From positions 1-34,396 of the IMG/VR virus record IMGVR_UViG_3300037827_000122: 34,396 nt of DNA. One strand, 5' to 3'. Below, piece after piece: positions 3,213 through 9,125 of this stretch; the stretch's first letter is position 1, and the number at the start of each line of letters is the position of its first letter. The position numbers and the translations under genes were made by a program. Below the pieces are notes generated by a model. The model worked only from the letters and a program-made list of their open reading frames with translations. It had not been told where the DNA came from and ran no database searches. The DNA is from a virus.

Positions 3213-3389
3213 ATGCCACCAGTTTCTGAGAGCCAGCGACGCTGGGCCTTCGCCAACAAAGACAAGGGCGGCAAAGAAGGCGCTGCGGCCAAGGAGTTTG
3301 CTAACGCTGACCCAGGCGGCAAGTTGCCGGCCAAGGTCGCAGACGGCAAGCCGATGTCCAAAGCCGACGAGCGCTACGGCAAGAAGTGA
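3213..3389 (+). CDS. Small basic head-region protein, 58 aa
   Basis: The ATG at 3213 lies two bases after the previous stop. The protein is short and basic, beginning MPPVSESQRRWAFAN and ending KADERYGKK. The opening is like that of many small phage proteins of the type M-P-x-x-S-x-x-Q-R/Q-R/W-x-A, often encoded beside capsid genes (similar in style to DUF3008-like proteins), but no function is known to me. It shares the closing motif RYGK with the next two coding sequences (RRYGKGH at 3834 and KRYGKTD near 3865), a hint that these small genes have exchanged or duplicated ends. Start and frame are well supported by tight packing. Confidence 0.6.
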   Translation: MPPVSESQRRWAFANKDKGGKEGAAAKEFANADPGGKLPAKVADGKPMSKADERYGKK

Positions 3390-3496
3390 GAGCAGTGGTG
3401 GGATTCCAACCCACGGCGCCTTTGGATTACCCCTCGCTGGCAGGGCCATCGGCGTTTCGCTCAGCGTCACCGTTCAAGCACTCCGGCACACCGCTC
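3390..3496 (-). ncRNA. tRNA-like RNA candidate, 107 nt, no clear anticodon arm
   Basis: Read on the minus strand, 3496-3489 and 3397-3390 form an 8-bp acceptor-like stem (one G-U). A perfect 5-bp T-stem (3414-3410 with 3402-3398) abuts it directly and closes a 7-nt loop TTGGAAT. U8 and G9 equivalents (3488-3487) precede a 3-bp D-stem (3486-3484 with 3472-3470) with a serine-tRNA-like loop GAGTGCTTGAA. The normally universal G19 is C (3478) and C56 is G (3407), so the elbow pair is swapped but still complementary. The 55 nt between the D and T arms hold a branched hairpin (3454-3451 with 3420-3417, 3450-3448 with 3427-3425, 3445-3442 with 3434-3431) and no normal anticodon arm. No CCA is encoded. 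It begins one base after a stop codon and fills the only gap in the head genes. It could be a structured ncRNA or a decayed type II tRNA. Confidence 0.45.
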
Positions 3497-3552
3497 AAAA
3501 GCAGATTATGATGCCATCCCTGACACTTCAAGACGCGGCGCGGAGGCCGACC

Positions 3553-3834
3553 ATGGCGCGTGCTCACAAGTGGAAGAAGCCACACACCGAGTTCACTCCA
3601 GGCGGGAGCGTGACAGCCGATAGCCGACGTGCATCCGAAAAGGCCGGTCACACGATGGCGGGAGGTAGTTTCCCGATCAACAATACGGCCGATCTCGCCC
3701 GCGCAAAGCATGATGTCGGTCGCGCACACAATCCGGCCGCAGCGCGATCCTGGATCAACAAGCGCGCGAAGGAACTCGGCGCATCACCGCTCGGCGGCAG
3801 CAAAGCGGACCGCCGCTACGGAAAAGGACACTGA
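3553..3834 (+). CDS. Small DUF6582-like phage protein, 93 aa
   Basis: The ATG at 3553 is preceded by GGAGG at 7-base spacing, so it is preferred over upstream in-frame starts that would run through the RNA candidate. The core reads FPINNTADLARAKHDVGRA followed by a run of small and basic residues with ARSWINKRAKELG. That is the F-P-I-x-x-x-x-D-L-x-x-A-x-x-x-x-G-R-A pattern seen in small phage proteins and in domains attached to prohead proteases (DUF6582-like). A direct biochemical role is unknown; I infer a head-assembly link from location. It ends in RRYGKGH, similar to its neighbours. Confidence 0.6.
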   Translation: MARAHKWKKPHTEFTPGGSVTADSRRASEKAGHTMAGGSFPINNTADLARAKHDVGRAHNPAAARSWINKRAKELGASPLGGSKADRRYGKGH

Positions 3835-4679: not shown

Positions 4680-4848
4680 TGGTGTCATGGTTCCGTGCGC
4701 GGTCCGCACCGATGATGAATACGGACAATTTACGCACATCGAGCGCATCAACGGTTGGGAGAACCCAGCCGCCATCCCCGGAATCTTCTACGGCAGTCCC
4801 GTCAATCGCCCAGGCGAAGACGAAACCTTCACGGAGCAACAGTCGTGA
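4672..4848 (+). CDS. Small hypothetical protein, 58 aa
   Basis: The ATG at 4672 overlaps the previous gene by eight bases and has GGAGGGCGAGG immediately upstream, inside the acidic tail codons of that gene, so translation is probably coupled. The product begins MADGVMVPCAVRTDDEYG and contains a short aromatic block (GWENPAAIPGIFYG). It has no membrane segment or signal peptide. I recognise no family. It ends in an overlap with the next GTG start, so it belongs to the same tightly packed head operon. Confidence 0.5.
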   Translation: MADGVMVPCAVRTDDEYGQFTHIERINGWENPAAIPGIFYGSPVNRPGEDETFTEQQS

Positions 4849-7619: not shown

Positions 7620-9125
7620 ATGGCAATCACAGGTAAGGAACTCGTCGAGGTCATCACCTTCGGCGTGTCATCGCCAGGATCAGCAATCGCAGCGGGCGGC
7701 ACCGAACTTATTCCGCTTTCGACGATTGCCACCCTGGGAGGAGGTGGAGGGTTTCCTTCCCTTCTCGCGAAAAACGTTACGGCCAATGCCCCATTGGGCG
7801 TTCTGCCAGCCGGAGGATTTATTGGGCCGTTCCTGCTCCTGGAGGAAACCGCCGGCTCCCCAGCCACGATTTCGATCGGCACGACGCTCGGTGCAAGCGA
7901 CGTGCTGTCGGCTCAGCCACCGGTTCCCGCGAATGGTAGCCTTACCGTCGACATCACCAGTTTCACCAAAGGTTGGAGTTCGTCGTCAGCGCCACAAACG
8001 CTTTATCTGACCACCTCGGGCGGTGGCTCGTCGATTACCGCGCAACTCCTCTACTGGATCATCGGAACACAAGGAGGCGTTCCTGCCGGCGCAACCGGTC
8101 CCACTGGCCCTGTTGGCCCCACCGGCTCGACAGGGCCAACGGGCGCAACCGGACCAACCGGTGCTGGCCCCACTGGCGCAACCGGTCCAATCGGCCCTAC
8201 CGGGCCTGTCGGTCCTACAGGGGCCACGGGGGCGGTTGGCCCCACTGGCGCAACCGGAGCAACTGGGCCAACCGGAGTCGGCACCACAGGCGCGACAGGT
8301 CCCACAGGCGCGACGGGCGCCACCGGGCCATCTGGTGGCCCTGCCGGACCGACCGGCGCCACAGGTCCAACAGGAAACACAGGCCCGACAGGACCGACAG
8401 GACCGGCTGGCGCGACCGGACCCACCGGCGCGACCGGAGTGGGCGCGACCGGCCCTACAGGGGCGACCGGACCAACAGGCCCCGCAGGAGGCACACCGGC
8501 CACCTACGGAGCGAGCGTCGCGGCAGGTGCCGGGTCGGCAATCACCGTCAACGTCCCGTTCAACGTCACCGACCTCAATCTGCCGCCAGGGACGTATCTG
8601 ATCTACGGCAACGTCGGGGCGCATCCCGGCGACAGCACGACCGTTGTCCAGGGCCTGAATGCCTGGATATCGACCACCTCAGCTTCTCTTCCAACGCTCC
8701 CGAATGCCGGGGCGGATCAGGCGCCAGGCATCTTCAGTCCTCCGGCTGGCGTTGGGCCGCTAATCTCGGCCGGCGTGATGACACTCACACTGGCCAGCAC
8801 CACCCTGGTCTATCTGTCCGGTGTCTGTGGCTACAGTGGCACGCAGCCGTCGAACTACGGCTTCATCGGCGCCATCCAACTGGCAGGCACCGGGGCGACC
8901 GGACCGACCGGCGCCACAGGTGCTACCGGCCTTACCGGACCGACCGGCGCCACAGGTGCTACCGGGGCGACCGGCGCGACCGGACCTACCGGACCGACAG
9001 GCTCAACCACATTCACGGAAACCGTCTTTGCCGCCACCAGCTTCTCGGCACTTCCGACATCTGATCCAGGCGGAGGGTTGCCATGGCTGAACAACGGCTT
9101 CCTGATGATCGGAACACCGGCATGA
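7620..9125 (+). CDS. Collagen-like tail fibre protein, 501 aa
   Basis: ATG at 7620, two bases after the previous stop. Residues 1-150 are a globular beta-rich head (it begins [15 protein letters not shown]). Residues 157-290 and 423-461 are Gly-X-Y repeats dominated by GATGPTG units with a few one-residue slips. Between them residues 295-420 form a beta-sandwich-like domain ([20 protein letters not shown]) like the trimeric distal domains of collagen-type fibres. The last 40 residues end with a Phe/Leu-rich block. Gly-X-Y runs in phages trimerise fibres. Unlike other fibres here it has no signal peptide, and only one cysteine (in the beta-sandwich). It lies between adaptor genes, so it is probably a tail or neck appendage. 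Confidence 0.75.
8088..8490 (+). repeat. Gly-X-Y collagen-like coding repeat 1
   Basis: About 134 codons in which nearly every third is Gly, mostly in GATGPTG or GPTGATG units. Codon choice varies between ggc, ggt, gga and ggg, so the repetition is mainly at protein level. Slips of register occur near residues 181, 220 and 239. The high GC gives long mirror frames on the minus strand (Pro-Val-Gly repeats) that are not genes. Confidence 0.85.
8886..9002 (+). repeat. Gly-X-Y collagen-like coding repeat 2
   Basis: Thirty-nine codons of uninterrupted Gly-X-Y, mainly GATGATG units, after the beta-sandwich of the same fibre. Here the DNA itself is more repetitive than in repeat 1 (accggcgccacaggtgctac occurs twice), which suggests recent unit duplication and a possible site of length variation between related phages. 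Confidence 0.8.

Follow-up and report, generated by a model that had tools for sequence, protein, structure and literature searches.

The 34,396-nucleotide stretch of viral DNA analysed here (IMG/VR record IMGVR_UViG_3300037827_000122; referred to as the window) carries on its minus strand a 107-nt tRNA-Ser-like element, located by sequence and descriptor match at positions 3390–3496 with its 5′ end at 3496, which we interpret, with a probability of roughly 0.6, as a phage tRNA-Ser gene that occupies a variable intergenic slot, no longer has its decoding arm and probably does nothing. It has the look of an aberrant tRNA gene more than of a clearly novel class of RNA. We propose that it would have originated as a serine-tRNA gene of the kind that some phages carry with a compensated C19–G56 elbow, placed in a variable slot between two small head-region genes, and would then have lost its anticodon arm. 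A minus-strand transcript, if made, would comprise a tRNA-like acceptor/T/D half for which decoding is impossible, and the element is most likely idle cargo on its way to decay. At the sequence level, the tRNA-Ser body, the missing anticodon loop and the absence from relatives are all evident.

Read from 3496 to 3390, the minus strand has the order GAGCGGTG TG CCG GAGTGCTTGAA CGG, a 55-nt middle, then GTGGG TTGGAAT CCCAC CACTGCTC. The 5′ acceptor strand GAGCGGTG (3489–3496; G-1 plus positions 1–7, assigned from sequence and fold) and the 3′ acceptor strand CACTGCTC (3390–3397; positions 66–73, with CCA not encoded) form an 8-bp stem that includes one G-U, and this is preferably taken as the seven pairs of a canonical acceptor, AGCGGTG/CACTGCT, lengthened by an eighth, G(-1)–C73. 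The D-arm CCG-GAGTGCTTGAA-CGG (3470–3486) has C19 at 3478, and the T-arm GTGGG-TTGGAAT-CCCAC (3398–3414), with G56 at 3407, is perfect and abuts the acceptor. The core bases U8, G9, A14, G15, G18, C19, A21 and C48 are present together with a G15/C48 combination, as are U54, U55, G56 and A58 in the T-arm. What is expected of a type II serine tRNA is thus found in the 7-bp acceptor, which stands directly against a 5-bp T-arm that has U54, U55 and A58, and in the Ser-type 3-bp D-arm with U8, A14, G15 and G18, but not at G19–C56, where the element has the compensated variant C19–G56. The 8-bp stem, abutting T-arm and serine-like D-arm of the original prediction are therefore all in the sequence, as is the exchange of bases at 3478 and 3407, and its description of a tRNA-derived sequence with a compensated 19–56 change and no anticodon arm is borne out.

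The individual arms are also those of real phage tRNA-Ser genes. The D-loop is identical in the tRNA-Ser of locus L032 and near-identical in L038, L016 and L024, and the exact 17-nt T-arm with G56 was found in 29 viral-contig stretches, many of which are ordinary phage tRNA genes of various specificities. A descriptor composed of the acceptor, U8, D-stem, A14, G18, a Watson-Crick 19–56 pair and the T-arm matched the window once, at the element, and had no match in 300 dinucleotide-preserving shuffles. Chance resemblance, for which only the failure of standard tRNA finders to call the element speaks, is effectively refuted by these shuffles and by a T-arm shared with real phage tRNAs, and we consider it extremely improbable.

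The 55-nt middle (3415–3469, minus strand) takes the place of both the anticodon and variable arms and has no 7-nt anticodon loop. Nowhere in the element could we draw an anticodon stem of about 5 bp capped by a 7-nt loop that includes U33, and in this respect it departs from a tRNA. The whole RNA folds no better than shuffled sequences (z = -0.62) and nor does the middle on its own (z = -0.22), so that the branched 55-nt hairpin previously described there finds no support; in the minimum-energy fold of the element, a mini hairpin of 3 bp accompanies a long, imperfectly paired arm. At the standard threshold ARAGORN did not call the element, whether or not introns were allowed, lowering its thresholds gave hundreds of false calls across the window, and the Rfam tRNA model did not report it. 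An intron-containing tRNA was rejected, there being none at the standard threshold with introns of up to 200 nt. The longest antisense match of the middle within the phage is 10 nt, the same as for shuffles, and a consensus scan gave no minus-strand promoter or terminator. By eye, a TTGAAG...CATAAT pair lies just upstream of the RNA, with a 15-nt spacer, and we give it little weight.

It could be argued that the element is a decoding tRNA whose anticodon arm is atypical, and a 5-bp stem CGCTG/CAGCG closing a 22-nt loop can be drawn by eye; the type II tRNAs of L032 and L038 moreover have middles of similar length (50–53 nt). We regard this as very unlikely, since there is no 7-nt loop with U33, the CGCTG/CAGCG stem is missing from the minimum-energy fold, and both ARAGORN (introns up to 200 nt, standard threshold) and the Rfam tRNA model are silent.

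The 19–56 exchange is not peculiar to this element. Among 151 distinct ARAGORN-called tRNAs from the loci sampled, position 56 is G in 18, T in nine and A in one; many of the G56 tRNAs were found through G56 itself, whereas the T56 and A56 tRNAs and a handful of those with G56 were not. The matching Watson-Crick base (C, A or T) follows a D-loop G in all 28 of these non-C56 tRNAs, giving C-G, A-U and a single U-A pair beside the usual G19–C56, while the D-loops of C56 tRNAs contain GC in 34%, GA in 33%, GT in 63% and GG in 96% of cases; this was assessed by motif and not by alignment, and the single A56 case is therefore weak. In six tRNA-rich regions not chosen for G56 content, some of which were reached via T-arm matches, C56 is replaced in two of 139 tRNAs, each time with a matching partner. 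The compensated swap occurs in decoding phage tRNAs for Ser, Leu, Cys, Ala, Lys, Met, Arg, Gly, Gln and Thr and in those of the amber-suppressor type. The tRNA genes in which positions 19 and 56 change together (C19–G56, A19–U56 and apparently U19–A56) are those of L003–L031 and L110, scattered over many specificities, and in L005, L010, L026 and L028 an apparent group I intron end, recognised by eye, precedes the 3′ half of a G56 tRNA, with ARAGORN silent.

Judging from these gene sequences, positions 19 and 56 covary in phage tRNAs, albeit rarely, and the element is one such variant. Because decoding phage tRNAs carry the same compensated swap, it is no mark of a special elbow mimic, and the reading of the exchange as elbow mimicry is unsupported. 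A minority of phage tRNAs thus alter the near-invariant G19–C56 pair, with each change in the sample matchable by a compensating partner, and these provide natural covariation evidence for a tertiary pair whose constancy usually prevents such a test; some of these genes escape standard tRNA finders. Neither swapped 19–56 pairs nor anticodon-less phage tRNA-like sequences were found in the open-access literature searched, and they may still have been reported.

Several of the genes related to the element in their arms are complete. L032 (gene at 8726–8829) and L033, a viral contig and a Spirochaetaceae MAG, have near-identical type II tRNA-Ser genes with a CTA anticodon (amber suppressor), C19 and G56, and L038 (6862–6968; Rhodospirillales MAG) has a type II tRNA with a CCU anticodon, a long variable arm, C19–G56 and an encoded CCA; were this tRNA to be charged with serine, the arginine codon AGG would be translated as serine. 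All three were missed by ARAGORN, and Rfam gives 44 bits for L032 and 49 for L038 (cut-off 29), finding these two only with permissive filters on a short stretch.

The closest analogue is in L022 (IMGVR_UViG_3300050016_000228, 766–656, minus strand), which has a near-identical D-arm, exactly the same T-arm and no anticodon loop, and lies antisense in the gap that separates a head-closure gene from a head-tail-adaptor-like gene. It has no normal acceptor and sits inside a longer outer helix. At 646–780 it is enclosed by a near-perfect outer inverted repeat, GCCATCCGGACTCGG / CCGAATCCGGATAGC, and GGATAGC occurs three times around it, possibly reflecting a small insertion element. A third sequence, in the 127-kb contig L021 with its dozens of tRNAs, scores as a tRNA with an alignment that skips the anticodon arm; a second irregular tRNA-like sequence was seen just upstream of it (about 4719–4800, minus strand). 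The middles of the three have nothing visibly in common. The search patterns demanded intact D- and T-arms, and the intact bodies among the matches are in part so by construction. Four pattern scans able to find intact-arm copies gave no homologue with both arms beyond L022, and sequenced phages gave short, insignificant matches only, mostly to T-arms of ordinary tRNA genes. A conserved family was rejected after a relaxed pattern scan added nothing but chance matches.

The element lies in a 121-bp gap (3390–3510) between two small head-region genes, with all flanking genes on the plus strand. The stop codon of the upstream gene (3213–3389, plus strand; 58 aa) abuts it, and it ends 15 nt short of the start codon of the downstream gene (3511–3834, plus strand; 107 aa). 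It is antisense to late genes, as the original prediction had it. The upstream protein has a 74% identical counterpart in L002 and 28 relatives in viral contigs, and the N-terminus of the downstream protein is 70% identical in L060 and 30% in L002. In L002 the upstream gene is followed at once by the next gene with no gap, L060 has a 77-bp unrelated spacer in the place of the element, and in other phages with the upstream gene the junction is short or differently filled. An unrelated long GC-rich hairpin lies at the same junction in L083 (about 2172–2260). This slot seems open to short sequences that have structure. The L022 element is similarly absent from L062–L064 and from L061, in which the adjacent protein shows 97% identity. 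From these comparisons of gene order, such an element occupies a permissive slot variably, and does so in two phages unrelated to each other, that of the window and that of L022. We infer acquisition of the window element, as opposed to loss in every relative, and no present function. Homologues with covariation, the mark of a conserved structured phage RNA family, are not found among the relatives, which lack the element; the homologue search that had been suggested gave no conserved homologue at the site.

An improbable alternative is that the plus strand is the relevant one and that the inverted repeat forms an intercistronic mRNA hairpin insulating or tuning translation of the downstream gene. 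The element does occupy the gap and end shortly ahead of the start codon, and in L083 this junction is occupied by an unrelated hairpin, but the identity to tRNA-Ser arms is confined to the minus strand, plus-strand folding (z = -0.56) is no better than for shuffles, and there is no gap whatever in relatives such as L002.

The lost-arm tRNA-Ser gene is favoured by its complete, non-random body with D- and T-arms as in real genes, by the empty or otherwise filled site in relatives, by a middle that folds like random sequence, by the absence of the L022 analogue from a relative with a 97% identical neighbouring protein, by the lack of a promoter or terminator in the consensus scan, and by the four pattern scans that gave no homologue. 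Against it, every body stem and core tertiary position is intact, a state for which decay by itself would account only if recent; either the arm was lost recently or the RNA is still used by something. L022 and L021 also have no normal anticodon arm, though the patterns favoured intact D- and T-arms. A rival reading is a functional non-decoding tRNA mimic that would be transcribed, elbow-folded, processed and perhaps charged by SerRS, and that occupies tRNA-binding enzymes or nucleases. SerRS recognises the acceptor and long variable arm and not the anticodon, so charging of the element is conceivable; the acceptor, both arms and tertiary core are intact, the elbow is compensated, and L022 provides an independent antisense analogue in the same sort of place. 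We nonetheless consider a mimic rather unlikely, as the element is not conserved in relatives, its middle is unstructured, and L022, itself set within a longer helix, has no normal acceptor. More speculative still, and doubtful, is the idea that several phages (those of the window, L022 and L021) make and process anticodon-less serine-tRNA bodies, perhaps charged, as decoys for tRNA-directed enzymes, with the swapped elbow aiding escape from a host factor that reads G19–C56. A decayed tRNA had been ranked below a decoy, processing signal or regulator; with no conserved homologue at the site and nothing beyond the intact body in favour of those roles, we reverse that order, and an arm-less relic is now the likelier.

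The element was compared with several known systems. L022 is alike in the start of its D-loop, its T-arm, the lack of an anticodon loop, its antisense position in a head-gene gap and its absence from close relatives, but has an unrelated middle and a broken canonical acceptor within a longer outer helix, and belongs to an unrelated phage. The 8+5 bp acceptor/T stack recalls tRNA-Sec, although the element has a 3-bp Ser-type D-stem, no anticodon arm and no Rfam match; the Rfam tRNA-Sec model gave no match up to E = 10 in the window region, and L022 scores 17.7 bits against it, below the cut-off of 47. Allo-tRNAs have an 8/4 or 9/3 acceptor/T branch of 12 bp and an anticodon, and some irregular tRNA-like sequences have a G-1 base, with carriage by mobile elements suggested (PMC7609411). 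The element resembles both groups in its Ser-like body, and some irregular members share G-1, but it differs from allo-tRNAs in its 8/5 composition (7/5 plus G-1) and in having no anticodon. Assignment as an allo-tRNA was excluded by stem composition, 8/5 versus the required 8/4 or 9/3 (PMC7609411). Type II phage tRNA-Ser genes with C19–G56 (L016, L024 and L023, and the amber-suppressor type of L032/L033) have a normal anticodon arm, unlike the element, which alone has the extra G(-1)–C73 pair, and share with it a D-loop that is AGTGCTTNAA or nearly so, a G56 T-arm, a 3-bp Ser D-stem, U8 and A14.
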